Of a DNA stretch of 64,000 nucleotides, positions 23,607 through 55,542 are shown piece by piece. Position 1 is the stretch's first letter. Each line of letters starts with the position of its first letter. A model generated the notes under the pieces. It did not search any database. It was not told the DNA's origin and saw nothing but the letters and a program-made list of their open reading frames with translations. Position numbers and translations under genes: made by a program. The stretch covers positions 744,001 to 808,000 of the forward strand of contig NZ_OCMF01000001.1 in NCBI RefSeq assembly GCF_900215295.1, given 5' to 3'. The stretch comes from Salinimicrobium sediminis. Lineage in GTDB: Bacteria; Bacteroidota; Bacteroidia; Flavobacteriales; Flavobacteriaceae.

Positions 23607-24356
23607 TTACAATCTTTTCAGATCATTTTCCTGCATCCAGCCCTGACTTCCGTTAGGCAATTCGATCTCTACCCATTCCTGGAAGTTTTCAGTGATCTTC
23701 ACTTTTGCCCCTTCATGCAATAAAAAAGCCTCCCCGGCCCTTACTGAAGGTTCGCTTTTCACCTCTACCTCTTCAGAAAAAATTATCGCAAAATTACTTT
23801 CCTGCTGCAGGTCCTGTTTTAAGAAACCTATGATCACCGAAGAAATCGCGAGAACCAGAAAAAACATGCTGCCTATAAACGTCATTCTTTTGATCATGCT
23901 TCTTCTGCTGAAGTAGTACACCAAAAAGAATACAATGAAGACCATCATACAAATTATTGCTACCCAGGCCCATCCCCCAGCCGAAAATGCTGAAGTTGAC
24001 CTGTCAAAAATGCCCCAAAATCCTTCCGACTCTTCTGTTCCCAAAGCATCAATTGCCATGGTCCTCGCAAAGGTGAGGTTATTTCGTGCATCTTCATTTC
24101 CGGGATCTAATTGCAGCGCCTTTTCAAAATGATAGATGCTGGGTGCGATCCGGCTGAGCTTATAATAAGAATTTCCCAGGTTGTAATGCAGTTCTGCCGA
24201 AGTTTCGCCGTTCTCCAGGATCTGCTCGTATTTAGCCACTGCCTCCTCATAATTTCCCTCTGCATATGCATTGTTGGCATCCTCAAAAAGTTGAGAATTT
24301 TGAGCAATTCCCGAAAGGCTAAAAAGTATCGCGAATAAAAAAATCAGCTTTTTCAT
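23607..24356 (-). CDS. batE: BatE: TPR and SH3-type membrane protein of the bat operon
   Basis: A 249-residue envelope protein: signal peptide (1-18), two TPR units (about 25-95), two membrane helices (about 127-150 and 158-177) and a C-terminal bacterial SH3-like domain (from about 185; AFLLHEGAKVKITENFQEWVEI, GWMQ). Bat proteins were described in Bacteroides as supporting aerotolerance; their biochemical action remains unclear. Its ATG overlaps the batD stop (ATGA). Confidence 0.9.
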   Translation of the reverse strand: MKKLIFLFAILFSLSGIAQNSQLFEDANNAYAEGNYEEAVAKYEQILENGETSAELHYNLGNSYYKLSRIAPSIYHFEKALQLDPGNEDARNNLTFARTMAIDALGTEESEGFWGIFDRSTSAFSAGGWAWVAIICMMVFIVFFLVYYFSRRSMIKRMTFIGSMFFLVLAISSVIIGFLKQDLQQESNFAIIFSEEVEVKSEPSVRAGEAFLLHEGAKVKITENFQEWVEIELPNGSQGWMQENDLKRL

Positions 24357-26119
24357 ACCTGCTTATCGATTTCAGAAATTACACCTACGGCCTTGTCATA
24401 ATCCTGCTGCATGGCCACACTGGAAGCCGGTGTATACCGGGCAAATTCACAACTTTTAAGCAACTCATTGAATTGTATTACTGTAGTTGCATCCACTCCT
24501 TTGCTGGTTAACAATTCCTGGATACGCTCTTTGCTCATCTCACTGGTTTGGATATGCAATTTTGCTTTAAGATAATTATGCAGCGCCCGTTCCAAAGACT
24601 CATAGAATTTGGTCTGGTATCCCAGGTTTCGTTTGGCTTCTGAAAGATATTTTCGCGCCAGGCGATCGGCTTTTCTTATCCTGTTGCCACGTACATCTCC
24701 GGCAATGGCTTCCCGTCTTTTTCCGAAGAGGATGGCCAGCGGGATCAGTAACACGGGTCCCAGCAATAAGCTCCAGAACAAAACTGACCCCATAAATGGT
24801 GCTTCGCCAATAGCTTTTAGAGAAGTATTGAGCTTGATATATCTAAATTGATTTGCGGCCGAAGGAGTTTGTTGCTGTGCTGCAATAGGACCCGTACTTC
24901 CAGAGGGGCTCCTGGCTCCTGCGGGAGCTGCACCAACCTCGATCATAATTTCTTCGGAAGTGAGGGTTCTATAAGATCTTGTATTGAGATCAAAATAGCT
25001 GAAACTCATAGGCGGAATAGGATATTTACCCTGCGCCTGCGGGACCAGGGTGTAAGAGTTGGCAATGCTACCCTGCATTCCGTTCATATTGGTATTTACT
25101 CTTTCTGAATATTCAGGCTCGTACTGCTCCATAGAAGCGGGCACGGTCAATGGCGGCAGGTCAAAAAGCTTAAGGTTCCCCTGGCCGGACACCTCAACAG
25201 TGGCCTGTAGGGACTCGGTCGCGCGGAGTTCTTTTTTGCTGGTGTTTACTTCAAATTTCAGGTTCTTTCCAACTGCCCCTGTAAAATCTGCCGGTCTGCC
25301 TTCCTGCGGCAGGGGTTTTACATCTATAGTACGGTTCCCTGCGGCCACAACCTTGTCGACTGTTTCATAGAACCTGTTTCCGAAGATATCCCTTCGGTTT
25401 CCGGGAACTTCTACGGAAATATTCAGCGTTAAGGGTTCAATATTCAGCTTTCCGGTCTTTTGCGGATATAATACGGTTTTTCGAAGCACTACAAACCGGT
25501 AAGGTTCGCCGTTATAGGTGCCATTCTCCACCTCCAGCTGCCGAATGTCAATATTCTGACTCCAGAAATCGCTAAACTTAGGATTATCGATCTGTCTCCA
25601 GTCGCTCACATTGATCCGCGGACTCACATACAGTTTATAAACCACCGTAATGGCTTCATTCAAAAATGGGTTGGAATTAGAGACCTCGGCTACTAAATGA
25701 ATACTTTCAGAAGCAATATATTCAGAATTCTCTCCATCTGTAGGTTGATCTACGGCAGCGGTCACTTCCACCTGCACAGGTGAAGTTTTATAAACAGTGC
25801 CTTCGATGGTGATCTCTGCCTGCCCGATAGTGAGATTTCCCCGTTTTTTAGGCGCAAGAAAATAGCTGTAGGTTTTTGAGAAGCTTCTTTTACCATTTAA
25901 CCAACTTTGGCTTACCGACTGGTTTGGGCCTCCCACTACTGTAAAATCTGAAAATTGTGGCGGGTTAAAATTATCACCGTCTTCATTCATAACAAAATCC
26001 ACCCGCAGCCGCTCATTCACCCCAAGCTTGTTCTTGCTCACATTCGCGGTGAACTGAACCTGCCCAATGGCAAGGCCGGACATCATTAGCATTATGAAAA
26101 CTACCAGTTTCTGCTTCAT
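24353..26119 (-). CDS. batD: BatD: periplasmic Ig-like membrane protein
   Basis: A 588-residue BatD protein: signal peptide (1-19), several Ig-like domains on the periplasmic side (about 20-410, including GNLTIGQAEITIEG and SGQGNLKLFDLPPL), a Ser/Gly/Ala/Gln-rich linker, one membrane helix (about 450-472) and a cytoplasmic helical tail. The domain order is typical. It follows batC by six bases and is coupled to batE. Confidence 0.93.
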   Translation of the reverse strand: MKQKLVVFIMLMMSGLAIGQVQFTANVSKNKLGVNERLRVDFVMNEDGDNFNPPQFSDFTVVGGPNQSVSQSWLNGKRSFSKTYSYFLAPKKRGNLTIGQAEITIEGTVYKTSPVQVEVTAAVDQPTDGENSEYIASESIHLVAEVSNSNPFLNEAITVVYKLYVSPRINVSDWRQIDNPKFSDFWSQNIDIRQLEVENGTYNGEPYRFVVLRKTVLYPQKTGKLNIEPLTLNISVEVPGNRRDIFGNRFYETVDKVVAAGNRTIDVKPLPQEGRPADFTGAVGKNLKFEVNTSKKELRATESLQATVEVSGQGNLKLFDLPPLTVPASMEQYEPEYSERVNTNMNGMQGSIANSYTLVPQAQGKYPIPPMSFSYFDLNTRSYRTLTSEEIMIEVGAAPAGARSPSGSTGPIAAQQQTPSAANQFRYIKLNTSLKAIGEAPFMGSVLFWSLLLGPVLLIPLAILFGKRREAIAGDVRGNRIRKADRLARKYLSEAKRNLGYQTKFYESLERALHNYLKAKLHIQTSEMSKERIQELLTSKGVDATTVIQFNELLKSCEFARYTPASSVAMQQDYDKAVGVISEIDKQV

Positions 26120-26125
26120 TTTTTA

Positions 26126-27010
26126 TTACCAGTCTTTATCGGTTTGAACAGGCATGCCTTTGGCTTTTTTAGCATTGATCTTCTCCTGTACTTTCTTTTC
26201 CTCGTTCCCCATTGCCTCCAGCAAGTTTTTTATCTGCTGGGGAGAAAGTTGCCCCGGCCGTTGTTGCGGCTGTTTTGGCTCTTCTCCTTCTTTTGGCTGC
26301 TCATTCTTTTGCTGCTCTTTATCATCGGGCTGGCCGGCATTGTCCTTTTTCTTTTCTCCTTCTTTATTCTCGTCCTCTTTCTGGTCACCACCTTCTTTAT
26401 CTTCGGGCTTACCATCTTCACTCTGCTCCTTATCGCCTTCGCCGTCCTGCTGCTCCTTCTGGTCCTGCTTTTGCTTATCCTGCTCCTGTTTATCCTTTTC
26501 GTTCTTGTCACCGCCGCCGCCTTGTTTTTGCTCTTCTTCGAGCATTTTCTTGGCTAAAGCAAGATTATAACGGGTTTCATCATCATTTGGATTGTTCCGG
26601 AGAGACTGTTTATAAGCTTCCACGGCCTCACTGTACTTCTTTTGCTTCATATAAGCGTTCCCCTGATTATGAAAAGCATCATGTTTTAACGGTTTTTCTT
26701 CGGCAGTGGTAGCGGCAGCGCGATGTCTCTCCAGCGCCTGGCCGGTGATTTCCTTATTATAATAAAGGTTTCCGAGGTTGTACTTAGCTTCGGCATTTGC
26801 AGGATCTTTAGCAATAGCTTTGCGGTAGTAAGCTTCGGCAGTAGCCATGTCATTATCGGCTAAAGCGTCTTCTGCTTCCTGCATGTATTTTTTAGCTGTT
26901 TTGGCTGCAACTTTAGGATCTTCCTGGGCAAGTGCAACAAAAGGAATATAAAAGAAGAGTCCCAAAAACAGCATTTTTGGCAAGTAATGTCTCATTATCC
27001 TTTTCATCAT
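26126..27010 (-). CDS. batC: BatC: TPR protein with charged low-complexity tail
   Basis: A 294-residue exported protein: signal peptide (to about residue 29), three TPR-like units (about 40-165, DPANAEAKYNLGNLYYNK and NPNDDETRYNLALAKK), then about 85 residues composed almost only of Lys, Glu, Asp, Gln and Gly, and a short helical end. The charged tail is usual for BatC and explains why all plus-strand frames are open across 26144-26712. Its ATG overlaps the batB stop by one base (TGATG). Confidence 0.9.
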   Translation of the reverse strand: MMKRIMRHYLPKMLFLGLFFYIPFVALAQEDPKVAAKTAKKYMQEAEDALADNDMATAEAYYRKAIAKDPANAEAKYNLGNLYYNKEITGQALERHRAAATTAEEKPLKHDAFHNQGNAYMKQKKYSEAVEAYKQSLRNNPNDDETRYNLALAKKMLEEEQKQGGGGDKNEKDKQEQDKQKQDQKEQQDGEGDKEQSEDGKPEDKEGGDQKEDENKEGEKKKDNAGQPDDKEQQKNEQPKEGEEPKQPQQRPGQLSPQQIKNLLEAMGNEEKKVQEKINAKKAKGMPVQTDKDW

Positions 27011-28050
27011 CAGCTTCTTTTCTCGTTAAACAAATTTAATCTTTTTAACCAGGACGTTTGTCGTTCAAGCAGTAAGATATCCAGCAGAAGGAATAAAAGG
27101 CCTAATCCTAAGAACCATTGGAACTGGCTTTTGTAATCTGCGATCTGCTGCGATTCGAATTCCTTTTTATCCATATTCTGAAGGATCTCTGTCACTTCTT
27201 CCACTACTTCGGAAGTTACACGGCCATCGATATATCTTCCGTTTGCTTCCGAAGCAATTTCCTTAAGCGTTGCTTCATCAAGCCTTGTGATCACGGTCTC
27301 CCCGCTCCTGTCTTTCTTATAACTCTGAATGACGCCGTTCCTTTTCTCGGGAATTGGTCCCCCTGCAGCCGTCCCTACACCAATTGTGACGATCCTGATG
27401 CCTTCTTTTGCAGCTTCTGCAGCTATTTCTTCTATATTCCCTTCATGATCTTCCCCGTCACTGATAAGGAACAGGATCCTGTTGGTCTGTTCGTCATCAT
27501 TGAAGTAGGTCTTTGCCATTTCAAGGGCCTCGCTTATGGCAGTTCCCTGTGAAGAAAGCATGTCTGTATTCATGTTTTGCAGGAACATCTTTGCCGCAGC
27601 ATAATCTGTAGTGATTGGCAACTGCGGAAAAGCGCTGCCGGCATAGGCAATGATCCCCACCCTGTCACTTGCCAGGTTATTGATGATCTGGGTGACCAGC
27701 TGCTTCGATTTCTCCAGCCTGTTGGGAGCAATATCTTCGGCCAGCATACTTTTAGATACATCGACTGCGAAGACCACGTCAACACCTTCTCTTTTGACCG
27801 TTTCCAATTTTGTGCCAAACTGCGGATTCACTAACGCAATAACAAAACTGCTGATGGCAAGGCACAGCAGGATGATCTTCATGACCTGTTTCCCTGTAGA
27901 CCGATTAGGACTTAGCTTGTCCAACAATTCTTTATCTGCGAATTTTCGCTGGGTACGTTTTTGCCAAAAGACCACCATGGCATACAGCAGCACAATGACC
28001 GGAATGCCTACCAGTAACCATAAATATGTCTTATCTTCTAACAGAAACAT
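27010..28050 (-). CDS. batB: BatB: von Willebrand factor A membrane protein
   Basis: A 346-residue inner-membrane protein: two N-terminal helices (about 8-29 and 57-75), a periplasmic or cytoplasmic VWA domain with the metal-ion site DVSKS (D97, S99, S101), and a final helix near 315-335. BatA and BatB are paired VWA proteins thought to bind partners through the metal site. It lies 12 bases after batA. Confidence 0.94.
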   Translation of the reverse strand: MFLLEDKTYLWLLVGIPVIVLLYAMVVFWQKRTQRKFADKELLDKLSPNRSTGKQVMKIILLCLAISSFVIALVNPQFGTKLETVKREGVDVVFAVDVSKSMLAEDIAPNRLEKSKQLVTQIINNLASDRVGIIAYAGSAFPQLPITTDYAAAKMFLQNMNTDMLSSQGTAISEALEMAKTYFNDDEQTNRILFLISDGEDHEGNIEEIAAEAAKEGIRIVTIGVGTAAGGPIPEKRNGVIQSYKKDRSGETVITRLDEATLKEIASEANGRYIDGRVTSEVVEEVTEILQNMDKKEFESQQIADYKSQFQWFLGLGLLFLLLDILLLERQTSWLKRLNLFNEKRS

Positions 28051-28062
28051 CTTCTAATATTT

Positions 28063-29067
28063 TTATACAAAACTCCTGAACACGGTGAACCTTAACAGCA
28101 CTTCGAACAGCAGTAAAAAGCCTGCCAGTAGTACCAGCGGCCTGAACTTTTCTTCGTAATTATAAAACCGGAATTCTTCAATTTCAGTCTTTTCTAAAGT
28201 ATCGATCTCCTGGTAAATTTCTTCCAGAGACCTGTTGTCTGTTGCACGGAAATATTTTCCGCCGGTAGCATCTGCAATATCTTTTAGCAAGGCCTCATCG
28301 ATCTCCACCGGCACCCTTCCATACTGGAAATTTCCATTTGGTAAGATGCTAATAGGCGACAGGGCAGTACCATTACTCCCCACCCCTATGGTGTACGTCT
28401 TGATACCAAATTCGACAGCCAATTCACTAGCAATTTTTGGGTCGATAAATCCTGCATTATTCATTCCGTCGGTAAGCAAAATGATCACCTTACTTTCGGC
28501 CTGGCTGTCCTTTAATCTGTTTACGGCGGTTGCGAGCCCCATACCTATAGCAGTACCGTTCTCCAGGGCATTATTATATTCAATATTTTCCAGTGCTCCT
28601 AAAACAATGCTTTTGTCACTGGTGATTGGGGTTTGCGTAAAACTTTCCCCTGCATAGACCACCAGGCCTATCCTATCTCCGGGACGATTCTTTACAAAAT
28701 CTGCAGCAACCTCTTTTGTCGCTTCCAACCGGTTGGGATCCAGGTCCCGCGCCAGCATACTGGCCGAAACATCTATAGCCATAACGATATCGATCCCAAA
28801 GTTGCTGCTGGTTCGGGAAGAGACATCTACACTACGCGGGCGGGCGAGGGCAGTGATCACCAAAGCCAGCACCATAAGCCGCAGCACAAAAAGTACCGGC
28901 CTGAATTTTCCCAACAATCCCGGTTTGGCTTCAAATCCTTTAATGCTCGAGATCCTTAACTTGGCCGTTTGCCGGTTCCGCTTCCAGACGTACCATGCCA
29001 GTGCCAGCGGCAAAAGCAGCAAGAGCCAGAAAAAATGCGGATCCTCAAAAATCAGGTTTTCGAACAT
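28063..29067 (-). CDS. batA: BatA: von Willebrand factor A membrane protein
   Basis: A 334-residue paralogue of BatB: two N-terminal helices (about 11-29 and 56-75), VWA metal site DVSAS (D99, S101, S103) followed by LARDLDPNRLEATK, the Thr of the site in FTQTPITSD, and a C-terminal helix (about 308-328). The shared xxDxxPNRLExxK block supports duplication of an ancestral gene. The ATG overlaps the preceding gene's stop by one base (TAATG). Confidence 0.94.
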   Translation of the reverse strand: MFENLIFEDPHFFWLLLLLPLALAWYVWKRNRQTAKLRISSIKGFEAKPGLLGKFRPVLFVLRLMVLALVITALARPRSVDVSSRTSSNFGIDIVMAIDVSASMLARDLDPNRLEATKEVAADFVKNRPGDRIGLVVYAGESFTQTPITSDKSIVLGALENIEYNNALENGTAIGMGLATAVNRLKDSQAESKVIILLTDGMNNAGFIDPKIASELAVEFGIKTYTIGVGSNGTALSPISILPNGNFQYGRVPVEIDEALLKDIADATGGKYFRATDNRSLEEIYQEIDTLEKTEIEEFRFYNYEEKFRPLVLLAGFLLLFEVLLRFTVFRSFV

Positions 29068-30701
29068 TAATTTTCCATTTTTATTAGTTCAACAGAGGTG
29101 CTTACGCGCTGCGCGATCTCTTCGGCATATTTGTCTCCTTCGTTATAGATCATCACGATTTGCTGATAGCCTTCTCCCATTCCAAAATTGAGAATAGCAT
29201 ACTCCTTTTGAATGGGCTTGGATTTTTCGCTTTTTTGAAAGCTCATGGTCCCGAAGATCTTCATGCCTTTGGCTCCATTCAAAGTTTCAAACTCCTCCTG
29301 TTTGGTAATGATATTTTTTGCACCATTTGCTTCCAGATAGGAATATACTTCCTCTACTGCCCCTTCAAGGTTAAAATCTTCCCCGGCAGGACGGGTATTT
29401 ACACTTAAAAATACAGAACTTTCCAGGCTGCCAAAGTTAAATGTCTCTTTCCCTGAAGCCACTGCGGTGGAATCTTTCAATTCCCTCACCAACACATCGG
29501 GCGAGGCGATGCTCACCGGCGGAGTCCCGTATTCACTTTCTATCCATTCTCCCTCAAGCATCTCTTTGCTGGTGTTGCCTAAATAAGTATCGGCAAAATA
29601 ATCAAGGCCTTTTGTGGAAATGATGTAAGCAGTTGCTGCACTTATGAGAATTACCACTGCAAGGATGCCAAAAATGATCTTTTTGACCTTTCTTTTTCTT
29701 TCCAGCCGCTCCCGATATTCCTGGTCTGCCAGTAATTCCTCTTCTGTGGGTTGCGGAATAGAAGCCTTAGTATCTTTAATTACATTTTCAACGCTCGCGC
29801 GGTCTTCCTTAGCGGTCAAAACATCGGGTTTTGAATTAGCAAATTTTGCCAGGTCGGCACGCTCAAGAATGATCTTTAGTTTACTGATGGTGGTGTTCTC
29901 CAGTTTGAGCTTTCCTCTGTCCCTTTCAGCCTCCAGGTAAGCGATCAGCTCATTGGTGGTGCTTTCGAGGGCATGATCATAAACTTCTCCGTCCAGGTAT
30001 CTTCTTACGGCTGCGGAAAGCTGAGAGTAATATTCCTTGATCTCACGTTGTTCCAAAAGATGAGAATTGTCAAGCTGCTTTAGTTCATAAAGCGCCTGCT
30101 CATACGGCGGAAGCTGTTTCGCTGCCTCTTTTCTTTTTTGCCTGCTTTTGTACAGCAAATATCCAACGATCCCTAGCAAAATGAGCCCTAACAGCCACCA
30201 CAACCACTGCGGAATTCCAAATGCAGGAGGCACCTCCACGGCAGGTTTTATGGGATACATTTTTTGTTTGGTAGTGTCAACTACCACATCATTCACCACT
30301 ACCGAAAAAGAATCGGTGCGGAATTCCCGATCATTGATCAATACCCTTTGCTGCGGAATTGTATATTGTCCGGAATCAAATTGAGTAAGTGCGTATTCCC
30401 GGATCAATCTTTGGCGATCTCCTATTTCACTGGTATCAATTGCATAAGCCTCGATCATTTCGAGTGGAGAGAAAGTCTGCCCCTCGGGAAAGACCACAGG
30501 AGATCCCCCGTCGCTTTCGACCGAAAGCCTGTAAGTGATCTGCTCCCCGATCTTTATGTTAGTGGTATCTACAGAAGCTGAAACTTCCTGCGCCAAAGCA
30601 CTTACAGAAACAGCAGCAAGAAAAAATGTGAGCAGGCAGGAAACCAAAACTGCTTTCCATAAGGAGTCAAAAATGTGATTCTGCCGCAATCTTTTTTCCA
30701 T
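29067..30701 (-). CDS. BatD-like/DUF4381-type protein of the bat operon
   Basis: A 544-residue membrane protein: signal peptide (about 14-38), an Ig-like BatD-type domain (about 40-150), a first helix (about 165-184), a cytoplasmic helical region with LPPYEQALYELKQL and EIKEYYSQLSAAVRRYLD, a second helix (about 341-363) and a further extracytoplasmic domain (about 375-544). The first two-thirds resembles the DUF4381-type gene found between DUF58 and batA in other bat operons; I cannot name the C-terminal domain. Confidence 0.83.
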   Translation of the reverse strand: MEKRLRQNHIFDSLWKAVLVSCLLTFFLAAVSVSALAQEVSASVDTTNIKIGEQITYRLSVESDGGSPVVFPEGQTFSPLEMIEAYAIDTSEIGDRQRLIREYALTQFDSGQYTIPQQRVLINDREFRTDSFSVVVNDVVVDTTKQKMYPIKPAVEVPPAFGIPQWLWWLLGLILLGIVGYLLYKSRQKRKEAAKQLPPYEQALYELKQLDNSHLLEQREIKEYYSQLSAAVRRYLDGEVYDHALESTTNELIAYLEAERDRGKLKLENTTISKLKIILERADLAKFANSKPDVLTAKEDRASVENVIKDTKASIPQPTEEELLADQEYRERLERKRKVKKIIFGILAVVILISAATAYIISTKGLDYFADTYLGNTSKEMLEGEWIESEYGTPPVSIASPDVLVRELKDSTAVASGKETFNFGSLESSVFLSVNTRPAGEDFNLEGAVEEVYSYLEANGAKNIITKQEEFETLNGAKGMKIFGTMSFQKSEKSKPIQKEYAILNFGMGEGYQQIVMIYNEGDKYAEEIAQRVSTSVELIKMEN

Positions 30702-30711
30702 CGATAATCTT

Positions 30712-31575
30712 TTATCTGGCTTTAAAATAACCCAGTAATTTTTTTACATAACTTTCATCCACCCGGGTGCTAAGACTGCCTGCACCGCTTTTTCTAAAGC
30801 TTTCTGAAAAGTAATCCACCCGTTCCCGGTAATATTTTGTGTAATTGTTCCTAACCGCTTTCGAGGAAGTATCCACCATGATCCTTTTTCCCGATTCTTC
30901 ATCCTGCATGGCGACCATTCCAAGATTGGGGATGGTTTCCTCCCTCTCATCATAGACGCGAATGCCGGTAACATCGTGCCGGCCGCTGGTGATCTTAAGT
31001 GTACGTTGATAATCTTCGGCAATAAAATCTGAAAGCACAAAAACAATGGCTTTTTTCTTCATCACCTGAGAAAGAAATTTCAAGGCATTTTCAAGATTTG
31101 TTTTCCTGCTTTTGGGTTCGAATTCCAGTAACTCCCTGATGATCCTGAGAACATGGGAACGTCCTTTCTTCGGCGGAATGTACAGCTCAATAACATCTGA
31201 AAACAGTATCAACCCGATCTTATCGTTATTTTGGGTAGCCGAAAATGCCAGAGTGGCGGCAATTTCTGTAATGATATCCTGTTTAAAGCCATTGCGGGTT
31301 CCAAATAATCCTGAACCGGACACGTCTACCACAAGCATCATAGTAAGCTCCCGTTCTTCCTCAAAAACCTTTACAAAAGGTTCAGAATAACGGGCAGTAA
31401 CATTCCAGTCAATATTTCTTACATCATCTCCAAACTGATATTGTCGCACCTCGCTAAAGGTCATCCCGCGACCTTTAAAAGTAGAATGATATTCCCCGCC
31501 AAAAATGTGATCACTCAGCCGGCGGGTCTTGATCTCTATTTTTCGTACTTTTTTGAGTAGCTCCTTAGTATCCAT
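30712..31575 (-). CDS. DUF58-family VWA-like protein
   Basis: A 287-residue soluble protein with the DUF58 signature GRGMTFSEVRQYQFGDDVRNIDWNVTAR (about 40-67) and a VWA-like metal-site remnant DVSGSG (near 89-94). DUF58 proteins accompany MoxR ATPases throughout bacteria and are thought to be MoxR clients. The frame is open five codons further to a TTG at 31590, but ATG at 31575 fits the family. It starts seven bases after a heptad repeat array. Confidence 0.93.
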   Translation of the reverse strand: MDTKELLKKVRKIEIKTRRLSDHIFGGEYHSTFKGRGMTFSEVRQYQFGDDVRNIDWNVTARYSEPFVKVFEEERELTMMLVVDVSGSGLFGTRNGFKQDIITEIAATLAFSATQNNDKIGLILFSDVIELYIPPKKGRSHVLRIIRELLEFEPKSRKTNLENALKFLSQVMKKKAIVFVLSDFIAEDYQRTLKITSGRHDVTGIRVYDEREETIPNLGMVAMQDEESGKRIMVDTSSKAVRNNYTKYYRERVDYFSESFRKSGAGSLSTRVDESYVKKLLGYFKAR

Positions 31576-31581
31576 TTTTTC

Positions 31582-31663
31582 AATTAGCAATGAACAATTA
31601 ACAATGATCAGTGTTGTGAATTATCAGATTCCTCTGATAATTGGTTATTGATAATTGGTAATT
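31582..31663. repeat. Inverted pair of 7-bp tandem arrays in the bat operon
   Basis: Between moxR and the DUF58 gene lie four heptads matching AATNANC (31582-31609) and, 26 bases on, four matching the reverse complement GNTNATT (31636-31663). The arms can pair at 22 of 28 positions. A separate small hairpin, TATCAGA-TTCC-TCTGATA, lies at 31622-31639. Confidence 0.75.
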
Positions 31664-31664
31664 G

Positions 31665-32669
31665 TTACGGGACTTCGATCTCGTTTACGATCTTGTTGAT
31701 GATATCTTCGGAAGTTACATTTTCGGCTTCGGCTTCATAGGTGATGCCTACCCTATGGCGCAATACATCATGTACTACAGCGCGAACATCTTCGGGCACT
31801 ACATAACCGCGGCGTTTGATGAAGGCATAACATTTGGCAGCGGTGGCAAGATTGATACTTCCTCTTGGAGAAGCACCAAAACTTATAAGGGGCTTCAGGT
31901 TTTCCAACCTGTATTTTTCCGGAAAACGGGTAGCAAAAACTATATCCAGAATATATTTTTCGATCTTTTCATCCATGTAGACTTCCCGTACAGCCTGCTG
32001 TGCGCGGGCGATCTGTTCAAGGCTCACCACCGGATTCACTTTTTCAAAGCTGCCTTTTAGATTAGCACGAATGATCATTTGCTCATCGGCCATTTCGGGG
32101 TAATTGATCACCGTTTTCAGCATAAAACGGTCAACCTGGGCTTCAGGAAGCGGATAAGTCCCTTCCTGTTCCACCGGATTCTGGGTTGCCATTACCAGAA
32201 ACGGCCTGTCAAGGATAAAAGTCTCTTCTCCAATCGTCACCTGCTTTTCCTGCATAGCTTCCAATAAAGCCGACTGCACTTTTGCAGGAGCACGGTTGAT
32301 CTCATCTGCCAGTACAAAATTGGCGAAAATGGGACCTTTCTTTATGCTGAAGTCATTCAGTTTGATGTTGTAGATCATGGTGCCCACGACATCTGCCGGA
32401 AGCAAGTCTGGCGTAAATTGGATCCTGCTAAAGGTTCCATGTACTGCCTGGGAAAGGGTATTAATAGCCAGTGTTTTTGCAAGACCGGGAACTCCTTCAA
32501 GAAGGATGTGGCCCTGGCCTAACAATCCGATCAACAAGCGTTCAACCATATGTTTCTGGCCTACAATGACCTTTTTCATTTCTGAACTAAGAATATCAAC
32601 AAAAGCGCTTTCGCGCTCGATCTTTTCGTTGATGCTCGCTATGTCTATCGAGGTGTTACTATCTAGCAT
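31665..32669 (-). CDS. MoxR-family AAA+ ATPase
   Basis: A 334-residue cytoplasmic ATPase of the MoxR Proper type: Walker A GVPGLAKT (59-66), Walker B FVLADEINRAP, sensor-type segment FLVMATQNPVEQEGTYPLPEAQVDRF. MoxR proteins act as chaperones for VWA proteins. It is the first gene of the bat operon; a palindromic repeat region separates it from DUF58. I find no convincing promoter box in 32670-32769. Confidence 0.95.
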   Translation of the reverse strand: MLDSNTSIDIASINEKIERESAFVDILSSEMKKVIVGQKHMVERLLIGLLGQGHILLEGVPGLAKTLAINTLSQAVHGTFSRIQFTPDLLPADVVGTMIYNIKLNDFSIKKGPIFANFVLADEINRAPAKVQSALLEAMQEKQVTIGEETFILDRPFLVMATQNPVEQEGTYPLPEAQVDRFMLKTVINYPEMADEQMIIRANLKGSFEKVNPVVSLEQIARAQQAVREVYMDEKIEKYILDIVFATRFPEKYRLENLKPLISFGASPRGSINLATAAKCYAFIKRRGYVVPEDVRAVVHDVLRHRVGITYEAEAENVTSEDIINKIVNEIEVP

Positions 32670-32760
32670 GTATACAAAATTTTAATAATGTGAAGATACT
32701 TATCTAAGGTCAACGGCGCAACCTCAGCAAATATTCAACCAAAGTAACTTAAAATTTTGT

Positions 32761-32794
32761 TAAAAATAAAAGGCAGCGGGGTTACCGCTGCCTT
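32761..32794 (-). terminator. Terminator after the DUF4382 lipoprotein gene
   Basis: Minus-strand stem AAGGCAGCGG / CCGCTGCCTT (loop TAACC) followed by TTATTTTTA. It separates the DUF4382 gene from the bat operon on the same strand. Confidence 0.92.
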
Positions 32795-32817
32795 AATTTA
32801 CTTTAATCCTGAAGTAT

Positions 32818-33651
32818 TTATTCTACTTCGGCGCTGCCGTCAAGAAAGATTCCTCCCTCAAGAGTTGTAACTTCTCCCTTGGTTACCGTCACATTATTTA
32901 CTATAGTAACATTCAAGCCTAATCCTGCAGCAGGAGTAGCAGTGACTCTAAAGGTCCCCGCAGGCAATCCATGGATCTGGAAGTTTCCATTGGCATCTGT
33001 ATAAGCAGATGCGTTCATCGTTCCACTCTCTGCCTTGATCAATACCTGCTCTGTAGTTGGATGTACGCTACCAACAATAGAACCTGTGTTTTCTTCAACT
33101 GCCATTCTTATTACCGGCTTTAGATTATAGGTTCCATTTCCAGTAACAACAACAGATTTGTCTACATCAAAATCAAGAATAAAGGTGTAGTCTTCATCTG
33201 CTTCCAATTCCTGCCCCACCATTACTTTTAATCCGGACTGTTCTGCACTTGGAGTTTTCAAAGCATATTCCTTGATTGTGCCATTCTCGTCCACTTTAAT
33301 TGTGTTGTTGTCTCCCAATACCAGGCGAATCTGGTGCAGATAACCGGCTTCAAGTTCGGCATCCACAAGAAGTTCTGTAACCCCGCCGGTAAGGCTTAAC
33401 AAATCGATCACGCCGGTATTCACCCCTTCCAGGCTTACCCAACCTTCTTCTTCGCTACCTTCGGCAGTAGTTTTGATCATCACATCTTCAACTTCTACCA
33501 AAACTTCCTCGTAATCTCCGGGAGCATCGGTCAATTTAATGGCAACTCTTGCTTTTCCATCATCAGATCCTGCAGAGTCATCATCTGAACTACAACTAAC
33601 AAACCCTGCTGTAAGGGCAAAAAGGAAAAAAAATAAATGATACTTTTTCAT
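32818..33651 (-). CDS. DUF4382 lipoprotein with carboxypeptidase-regulatory-like domain
   Basis: A 277-residue lipoprotein: lipobox GFVSC (C20) followed by SSDDD, which resembles the acidic export signal that sends Bacteroidota lipoproteins to the cell surface. A DUF4382 domain follows (about 35-185, with RVAIKLTDAPGDYEEVLVEV and YLHQIRLVLGDNN), then an Ig-like regulatory domain (about 190-270, ANGNFQIHGLPAGTFRVTA). The role is unknown. It is a single-gene unit. Confidence 0.87.
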   Translation of the reverse strand: MKKYHLFFFLFALTAGFVSCSSDDDSAGSDDGKARVAIKLTDAPGDYEEVLVEVEDVMIKTTAEGSEEEGWVSLEGVNTGVIDLLSLTGGVTELLVDAELEAGYLHQIRLVLGDNNTIKVDENGTIKEYALKTPSAEQSGLKVMVGQELEADEDYTFILDFDVDKSVVVTGNGTYNLKPVIRMAVEENTGSIVGSVHPTTEQVLIKAESGTMNASAYTDANGNFQIHGLPAGTFRVTATPAAGLGLNVTIVNNVTVTKGEVTTLEGGIFLDGSAEVE

Positions 33652-33800
33652 AAATGTTTGTTTTTGATTTAGGTCTAATAACGGCCGATAAAAGGTTTTA
33701 ATTTATCGATGAAGGAAGTTTAACTCTTTTTAACGCAAGTGTGGATTCCTTTAACAGCAGTGGTTTCGGGTAAATTCTCCAGTTTCATTACTTTTAAAAA

Positions 33801-34568
33801 ATGAAGCAAAGAAATTCGTATTCCCGCATCGTTCAGGATCTTGAAGAGTGGAGTGAACTATCAAAAGGATCTAAAATCAGGCTTTTTCAGCACTGCATAG
33901 AAAAGGGTATTTCCAGTTTTCTAATTAACTTTTCAAAATCCCACAATTATGATCATGGCCTGGGCACTGCTTTTAGTGAAAGTGGTTTAAGCAGGGATGA
34001 AGTGCAGCTTATTGCCATACTTGATAAAGGAATTGCAAAAACAGAGGAGCTTATTGAGCAAGTGGAGAAAATTCTGAATCTTATGGACACAGATTACCTC
34101 GACCTCCTCATCCTTGACTTTGCGGGACCGCATGAAGAAATCATCGCGGCAATCGAACAGCTTAGGGCCCAGGAAAAGTTAGTGGAGATCGGGGTACTGG
34201 AAGAAAAACCGGGCGACAAAAGCGAATTTTTGAAGGAGTTCCCGGCAAGTGCAACACTTTCAGCTTTTAAGTTTACCCCGGCTGCAGTGAAAAGTCTTAC
34301 TTTAGCTGAAGCAGCTTCCGAAGAAACCACACAAATGATCATTCCGGTGAGCGGAGACTGGGAGAATGAGAACGAATCGCTGAAAAAAACAGCAGAAAAG
34401 TACAACCTGCGGCCTAAAGAGCTGCTGTTTTCATGGTTACTGCATCACAGGGCTCATTTTCACCCGGTGATCAAAGGAGATTCTGAAGCTGTAATCGATT
34501 CGGCGGTAAATGCTTTTCATGCTACTATTATTGATGAGGACCTTGAGAAGCTTCCTGAAAGACTTTAA
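33801..34568 (+). CDS. Degenerate aldo/keto reductase-like protein
   Basis: A 255-residue protein with the outline of an aldo/keto reductase TIM barrel of the YdhF type (FQHCIEKGISSF, TDYLDLLILDF, HFHPVIKGDSEAVIDSAV), shorter than the usual 290-330. By eye, the catalytic Asp-Tyr-Lys-His positions read L41, K46, I73/L74 and D106, so none is kept. The C-terminal cofactor-binding part is shortened. It is either a non-catalytic derivative or has a changed function. It opens a run of four same-strand genes. Confidence 0.72.
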   Translation: MKQRNSYSRIVQDLEEWSELSKGSKIRLFQHCIEKGISSFLINFSKSHNYDHGLGTAFSESGLSRDEVQLIAILDKGIAKTEELIEQVEKILNLMDTDYLDLLILDFAGPHEEIIAAIEQLRAQEKLVEIGVLEEKPGDKSEFLKEFPASATLSAFKFTPAAVKSLTLAEAASEETTQMIIPVSGDWENENESLKKTAEKYNLRPKELLFSWLLHHRAHFHPVIKGDSEAVIDSAVNAFHATIIDEDLEKLPERL

Positions 34569-55367: not shown

Positions 55368-55392
55368 TTTATTTGGACCTCTGCCCTACTAG

Positions 55393-55463
55393 AGTCAAGA
55401 ATCAAGAATCAAGACTTAAAGTTGCGCGGTTCGGGTTGCAGTTCAAAATGTTGCAGGTTGCAA
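55393..55463. repeat. Tandem 7-bp repeats, two families, after dinB
   Basis: Three units of ARTCAAG (55393-55413), then units related to GTTGCAG at 55421, 55435, 55450 and 55457. The spacing is seven bases or a near multiple of it. The tract is noncoding and lies between the dinB stop and the shared terminator. Confidence 0.7.
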
Positions 55464-55469
55464 ATTCAG

Positions 55470-55507
55470 AAATAGAAAAGCCACAAAGATCTTGTATCTG
55501 TGGCTTT
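55470..55507 (-). terminator. Bidirectional terminator between pyk and dinB
   Basis: Stem AAAGCCACA / TGTGGCTTT with a 13-base loop. On the minus strand it ends in TTTTCTATTTC, serving pyk; on the plus strand TTTATTC could serve dinB. Confidence 0.8.
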
Positions 55508-55512
55508 ATTCT

Positions 55513-55541
55513 ATCTAAGATCTCAAGTCTAAGATCTAAAA
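55513..55541. repeat. Tandem 7-bp repeat next to the pyk stop
   Basis: Four consecutive units related to TCTAAGA (TCTAAGA, TCTCAAG, TCTAAGA, TCTAAAA) end two bases before the pyk stop codon. Confidence 0.7.
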
Positions 55542-55542
55542 T

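Follow-up and report, generated by a model that had tools for sequence, protein, structure and literature searches.

Inverted arrays of degenerate seven-base repeats between moxR and the bat genes of Salinimicrobium sediminis: a recurring layout with changing letters

Introduction

Why does the one wide gap of an otherwise tightly packed bat operon hold two arrays of seven-base repeats that face each other? Intergenic repeats of seven bases are on record from several groups of bacteria, with no consensus on what they do. The gap between moxR and the DUF58 gene, in which the layout is kept in most of 80 relatives while the letters change, provides a fixed place at which the function of such heptads can be tested. 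We analysed this gap in the window, i.e., the whole 64,000-nucleotide stretch of Salinimicrobium sediminis DNA to which all unlabeled coordinates refer, and compared it with the rest of the genome and with related genomes.

Results

Anatomy of the gap

The initial annotation described four consecutive AATNANC heptads followed, 26 bases later, by four that fit the reverse complement, the arms being able to pair at 22 of 28 positions, and each of these statements was confirmed, the pairing by a count made by eye (Table 1). In the direction of moxR transcription, on the − strand, the 5′ arm starts 1 nt past the moxR stop codon, and the 3′ arm ends about 5 nt short of the DUF58 ATG; a longer, TTG-start frame from 31590 is also listed for the DUF58 gene. 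The hairpin between the arms had been described as a separate, perfect stem of 7 bp. It is longer than that and not separate, since it overlaps the first heptad of the second array, and it forms the inner stem in the predicted fold. The gap is indeed the widest of the operon, in which the remaining junctions are gaps of 6, 10 or 12 bp or 1-base overlaps. A search of window positions 30000–34000 against Rfam returned no match at the gathering score.

Table 1. Positions of the repeat arrays, the intercistronic gap and the surrounding genes in the window.
Feature	Position	Strand	Remarks
Four AATNANC heptads: AATTAGC AATGAAC AATTAAC AATGATC	31582–31609	+	3′ arm in moxR sense RNA
Four heptads: GATAATT GGTTATT GATAATT GGTAATT	31636–31663	− (AATNANC on − strand)	5′ arm in sense RNA
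Inner hairpin, perfect 10 bp, 4-nt loop	31619–31642		31619–31628 with 31633–31642
Whole moxR–DUF58 intercistronic gap, 89 bp	31576–31664		Period 7 at p ≤ 0.01
moxR, AAA ATPase gene	31665–32669	−	AAA_3, AAA_lid_2 (Pfam)
DUF58/VWA_2 gene	30712–31575	−	ATG at 31575; Pfam
Rest of bat operon: weakly BatD-like protein, BatA-type VWA, second VWA, TPR protein, BatD	24353–30701	−	Pfam

Enrichment in the genome and in the window

Three consecutive AATNANC heptads were matched 73 times (42 + 31 overlapping matches) in the 3.48-Mb genome of S. sediminis, compared with no match for the pattern read backwards, so the enrichment for which the initial annotation proposed a test was found. Such counts are of overlapping matches and are inflated by long arrays, which account, for example, for most of the listed ACTG matches in one relative (G062). 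All four exact matches in the window sit at the moxR–DUF58 gap. When three mismatches were allowed, the window held nine matches against 4.7 expected, a number reached in 7 of 100 shuffles, and thus only the strict form is enriched there. Tandem 7-bp units are mainly intergenic according to crude open-frame calls, with one site inside a 91-aa frame.

Among the 37 intergenic gaps of at least 40 bp in the window, two, including the moxR–DUF58 gap, had a period of seven at p ≤ 0.01. The second (55368–55542) lies between convergent open frames and carries AAGAATC-like and GTTGCAG-like words.

The triple AATNANC pattern was present in 22 of the 60 genomes searched (S. sediminis included), and most of the genus is rich in it. 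The reversed control outnumbered the pattern in several genomes (e.g., G012, G026, G033, and G037); being common in some relatives, it is a clean control for S. sediminis but not for every genome.

The same gap in relatives

Twelve genomes of the genus, including that of S. sediminis, were sampled, and 11 held a moxR ortholog; the twelfth (G008) gave only weaker relatives or fragments. An inverted AATNANC pair occupies the moxR gap in nine of these 11 genomes, with heptads that vary in number and at the free positions, and the gaps of the other two (G001 and G004) are without heptad arrays. The closest named moxR among the matches listed is that of Salinimicrobium nanhaiense, at 99% identity.

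For a wider view we took the best 80 of 589 moxR loci, most of which are titled Flavobacteriaceae or with genera that we take to belong to this family. These loci are related to one another, and the p-values assume independence; three pairs of entries in our samples appear to be duplicates, with identical counts or places (L074 and G011, L075 and G006, G078 and G028). A period of seven was detected in 53 of the 80 gaps at p ≤ 0.01 and in 62 at p ≤ 0.05, the lags of 7, 14 and 21 standing out as peaks. Among 90-nt control stretches taken from the same 80 loci, eight were periodic upstream of moxR, one inside moxR and none inside DUF58. Folding followed the same pattern: 48 of the 80 gaps reached z ≤ −2, vs. 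4, 7 and 7 of 80 in the control stretches. The 27 gaps that were not periodic at p ≤ 0.01 include nine that fold at z ≤ −2; CAGT-like heptads are still visible in three of these (L076, L101, and L113), and four others (L091, L103, L109, and L140) have other inverted repeats. Where heptads would stand, the gaps of L103, L109, and L140 have inverted hairpins that are GTCATTCCTGCGAAAGCAGGAATC-like or related to that type.

Unrelated sequence in relatives, according to the initial annotation, would speak against the feature. Outside the genus the letters are indeed mostly different, but the inverted heptad layout is the same, so that this objection is only half borne out. Because most relatives hold the layout while often swapping the letters of the repeat, the comparison suggests that what is kept is an arrangement rather than one particular sequence.

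A second gap, the 210 nt before gene L072, served as a comparison. Nine of the Salinimicrobium genomes have a period of seven in it (eight at fewer than 1 in 300 shuffles, and G005 at p = 0.017), and its words, as judged by eye, change within the genus, being AATNANC in S. sediminis and G011 and GAACCAA-like, AACCCNC-like or others elsewhere. None of eight other genomes, G004 and G001 of the genus among them and with the truncated G008 left out, had this period in the L072 gap, which suggests that the breadth of occurrence at the moxR gap is unusual; several of the eight stretches are wholly or partly coding and their gene order is unverified, so the comparison is to be read as suggestive.

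Words, polarity, and genome vocabulary

The core of the 5′ arm differs by lineage (CAAT, CAGT, GTTT, GATT, or TAGT), and the 3′ arm carries the reverse complements, which on the sense strand read, for example, ATTG, ACTG, AAAC, or AATC. Some gaps (L077, L098, L115, L141, and L149) are not well described by any of these five words. When the word of each gap was picked without regard to orientation, the 53 periodic gaps had 304 cores pointing one way and 28 the other (308 vs. 22 when the word was chosen by orientation). Counted by gap, 47 of the 53 follow this polarity, four oppose it and two are ties. A test that makes no use of words gave a similar picture: the two halves of the gap matched better inverted in 47 of 53 periodic gaps and better direct in three, and among the other gaps inverted matching was better in 19 of 27 and direct matching in four (p = 0.0005). 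That inverted halves prevail even in non-periodic gaps fits a demand for a hairpin.

Four words were searched genome-wide in 22 genomes, and the gap word was tallied against this vocabulary in the 12 with an unambiguous CAGT or GTTT gap. ACTG exceeded AAAC in six of the seven CAGT-gap genomes, the seventh (G066) having none of either, and AAAC exceeded ACTG in all five GTTT-gap genomes; the gap word was thus the richer of the two in 11 of 12. In the remaining ten genomes, the gap word and the genome vocabulary do not always match. For instance, S. nanhaiense (G060), whose gap uses AATNANC, has 71 matches to this word along with 127 to AAAC and 38 to ACTG. The S. sediminis genome (G000) holds, besides its AATNANC arrays, 27 ACTG matches and 21 AAAC matches with 13 for the control, and G062 (one of the 12) and G075, whose gaps use other words, yet have 28 and 27 AATNANC matches. 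The AATC search could not be interpreted, since in several genomes its reversed control was matched just as often. Of 118 genomes drawn from across the phylum, 40 contained the ACTG word, and in nine of these the reversed control was at least as frequent.

Flavobacterium hercynium was used to look at arrays beyond the moxR gap. We examined 20 of its 21 AAAC array sites; 14 of the 20 were read as inverted GTTT/AAAC pairs and, by crude frame calls, 16 lie between codirectional open frames. Twelve of the 14 gaps chosen for folding reached z ≤ −2.

A kept framework and the generation of repeats

Within AATNANC moxR gaps, the five framework positions were kept at 84–100% in 31 middle heptads, and the free positions vary. 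The same holds for the other words, for which the four core positions of a heptad between two intact neighbors in moxR gaps were kept at 89–100% (ACTG, n = 28; AAAC, n = 23; AATC, n = 27). A test over all stretches is biased upward because these were fetched for holding three heptads; the moxR gaps alone, and the other words, were not fetched by heptads, although the gaps were grouped by word. The framework is also kept in arrays with no evident partner arm, e.g., the orthologous gaps L070, L166, and L185. The initial annotation's view that the motif is not random AT-rich DNA is thus upheld, by a framework kept around two free positions, by genome-wide enrichment and by recurrence in the same gap in most of the loci examined.

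In 59 mixed AATNANC arrays of Salinimicrobium, adjacent heptads were identical in 30 of 204 cases, compared with 39.3 after shuffling, and every second heptad was identical in 50 of 145 cases, compared with 30.0 expected. Neighbors that are not alike, with alternate heptads that are, argue against simple 7-nt slippage as the origin of the mixed arrays and for a 14-bp alternation. Three of 62 arrays are homogeneous and slippage-like, and the mixed arrays L073 and L172, with runs of one heptad, also look slippage-like. The homogeneous arrays consist of AATTAGC in 17 (L062), 18 (L176), and 11 (L183) copies; L062 and L176 are orthologous and one copy apart, possibly marking a length-variable site. 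Another array, L069 (2395–2548), appears by eye to keep an unbroken 7-bp lattice while its word shifts along the array from GGTTTAA through TTGTTTA to GGGTTGC.

Folding, arm pairing, and transcription signals

The sense RNA of the S. sediminis gap is predicted to fold at −20.5 kcal/mol (z = −3.8) and the opposite strand at −26.8 kcal/mol (z = −4.1); the antisense is thus no less prone to folding, and folding gives no reason to favor the sense strand. The arms of one gap are no better matched to each other than to those of other gaps. Own arms showed no extra complementarity over arms swapped between species (47 gaps, p = 0.82) or, in F. hercynium, between loci (14 gaps, p = 0.28–0.86), and in nine Salinimicrobium gaps they scored lower than swapped arms (longest match 9.3 vs. 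11.2). Permuting the heptads within arms cost little stability (mean z = −0.96, with z ≤ −2 in 9 of 53 gaps). The stem therefore comes from the presence of one word in both arms, facing opposite ways, and not from covariation of individual bases. No other observation weighs as heavily against selection on exact pairing as this lack of arm-specific complementarity, and on the same ground we rejected local template switching between the arms.

Across the 53 periodic gaps, the predicted stem starts a median of 1 nt after the stop codon and ends 5 nt before the start codon. Pairing over positions −15 to −6 before the DUF58 start was 0.61–0.65, vs. 0.53–0.57 in shuffles, and positions −5 to −1 were more open (0.28 vs. 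0.49). These values lend no strong support to blocking of the DUF58 start; with pairing before the start only slightly above that of shuffles and the last five bases open, protection of a 3′ end fits somewhat better.

The initial annotation had also proposed that the feature could separate moxR expression from the rest of the operon. The Bacteroidetes-type promoter core has the consensus TANNTTTG. This core occurred in none of the 80 gaps, compared with 4.9 in shuffles, so a promoter of this type in the gap was rejected. An intrinsic terminator was rejected as well: no site was found at the moxR–DUF58 gap (0.2 in shuffles), and TTTTT near the start occurred in one of the 80 gaps, against 7.4 in shuffles. 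With promoter cores and T runs depleted and no terminator found, the operon is most likely read through across the gap. A transcriptional separator is thus unlikely on the evidence of sequence, and any separation of moxR from the remaining genes would act only at the level of RNA. A term search of the main text of a transcriptome paper on F. psychrophilum (PMC9723704) gave no mention of “moxR”.

Discussion

We tentatively prefer, while holding it at somewhat below an even chance, the interpretation that the gap is transcribed along with the genes on either side as an intercistronic stem-loop, that its heptads are drawn from a genome-wide vocabulary, and that the structure tunes moxR against the bat genes. 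The feature would belong to a class of intergenic elements dispersed in Flavobacteriaceae genomes, each consisting of two arrays of degenerate 7-bp words that face each other with fixed polarity. Transcribed within the operon RNA, the gap would form an imperfect stem-loop that opens just past the moxR stop and closes about 5 nt short of the DUF58 start, and selection would presumably act on its presence there. Such a structure would act after transcription to set moxR output relative to the downstream bat genes, either by keeping exonucleases off the moxR 3′ end, or by governing how ribosomes reach the DUF58 start, or both. A stem-loop that protects a 3′ end is the functional model for REP/BIME elements, which we have borrowed for the moxR gap. 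The word would be set genome-wide rather than locally; since complementarity at the level of the word suffices for a stem, letters can drift while the layout stays. Several observations tell against a stem-loop. If exact pairing were under selection, compensatory matches should be seen, and there are none beyond the shared word; in addition, 27 of the 80 gaps are non-periodic at p ≤ 0.01, G001 and G004 are without arrays, and the antisense folds equally well.

The absence of compensatory pairing is also what would be expected if some process that generates repeats, be it replication error, template switching, or another writer, were at work in tolerant intergenic DNA, leaving a stem at moxR that has no function. 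This explanation, which we consider unlikely though still a serious contender, is consistent with the coexistence of several words in one genome (S. sediminis and S. nanhaiense), with the homogeneous AATTAGC arrays and the single-heptad runs of L073 and L172, and with the change of words at the L072 gap within the genus while the period of seven stays. It accounts poorly for other features of the data: plain slippage predicts identical neighbors, whereas adjacent heptads fell below the shuffled number and alternate ones above it; the changes spare framework positions, even in the moxR gaps alone; and a fixed inverted polarity, together with the use of one gap in most of 80 loci, is unexpected for DNA that is merely tolerant. 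The kept framework and variable free positions, which extend to arrays without a partner arm, would instead be natural if each heptad were the site of a protein that reads a core of four to five bases every 7 bp, with two oriented arrays set face to face and words that drift along with the protein. The agreement of gap word and genome vocabulary for CAGT and GTTT points the same way. We nevertheless judge such a protein rather improbable: AAAC, which is not the gap word, outnumbers the gap word in S. nanhaiense, several words per genome would call for several proteins, and no candidate emerged. RRM proteins, which are present in cyanobacteria and Bacteroidetes, were considered and rejected, since PF00076 had no match in the 37 genomes of the family that were searched (S. 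sediminis included) and the positive control matched in Synechococcus and Bacteroides. A bolder proposal, to which we assign a slightly lower chance again, is that a trans-acting factor, a flavobacterial system for writing or reading heptads with lineage-specific words, maintains polar inverted 7-bp lattices between genes and substitutes a new word throughout the loci in the course of lineage divergence, keeping an operon-wide stem-loop architecture without sequence conservation.

Mobilization of a REP/BIME-type element by a RAYT transposase, akin to the self-propagating element raised in the initial annotation, we regard as very improbable. The heptad element is inverted, dispersed and intergenic, and Y1_Tnp genes are present in 25 of 60 genomes, with two in S. 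sediminis; they were matched in 16 of 22 AATNANC-positive genomes compared with 9 of 38 others, a difference from which relatedness has not been removed. However, no heptad array was seen within about 250 nt on each side of the 12 Y1_Tnp loci that were read, most of which have other hairpins, and one genome with 17 AATNANC matches (G005) had no Y1_Tnp match at E ≤ 0.001. Most of these RAYT-type genes (L154–L165, including L161 at C8:119353–119697 of the S. sediminis genome) are near various short hairpins unrelated to heptads.

Should the preferred interpretation hold and the stem balance moxR against the other genes of its operon, elements of this kind may set many operons in flavobacteria, as the inverted sites of F. 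hercynium would suggest. The gap also carries a warning, in that sequence alignment alone would call such gaps unconserved.

How does the element compare with known systems? The REP/BIME palindromes of enterobacteria are dispersed intergenic inverted repeats, often situated between genes of one operon. The heptad arrays resemble them as inverted intergenic pairs with fixed polarity, and differ in having no single consensus, in their 7-bp lattice and in not having been seen beside the local RAYT genes; rather than one conserved palindrome sequence, their arms are complementary only at the level of the word. REP-like palindromes have been counted in two Flavobacterium species, according to the accessible portion of the RepRanger survey (PMC12306157). 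Among long simple sequence repeats, 7-nt units are the most abundant category in most genomes (Mrazek 2007, as quoted in PMC4679880). The arrays described here share this period, and differ from repeats of that kind, as summarized there, in that their units are mostly non-identical and neighbors are no more alike than chance.

The closest published likeness is to the tandem 7-bp intergenic units of Bacteroidetes within the TAACTGA heptamers, which, in the accessible text of MacGregor (2015; PMC4679880), are reported from Beggiatoaceae, Cyanobacteria and five Bacteroidetes, including Gramella forsetii and Aequorivita. Other heptamers are noted in the same gaps. Heptamer repeats are thus far in print, and our search, which extended to open-access literature, gave no account of degenerate heptads paired in inverted orientation, whether in Flavobacteriaceae or at the moxR gap, or of the word-swapping form. 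Read in another phase, TAACTGA becomes ACTGATA, an ACTGNNN word such as many moxR gaps contain. As described in that text, TAACTGA repeats are mostly direct repeats of one exact word, with the BOGUAY copies upstream of start codons and a single inverted case. The S. sediminis gap instead holds an inverted pair of AATNANC words, and moxR-gap words in general, unlike TAACTGA as described there, are degenerate, paired, inverted and of fixed polarity, and recur in one operon gap even as the word itself changes.
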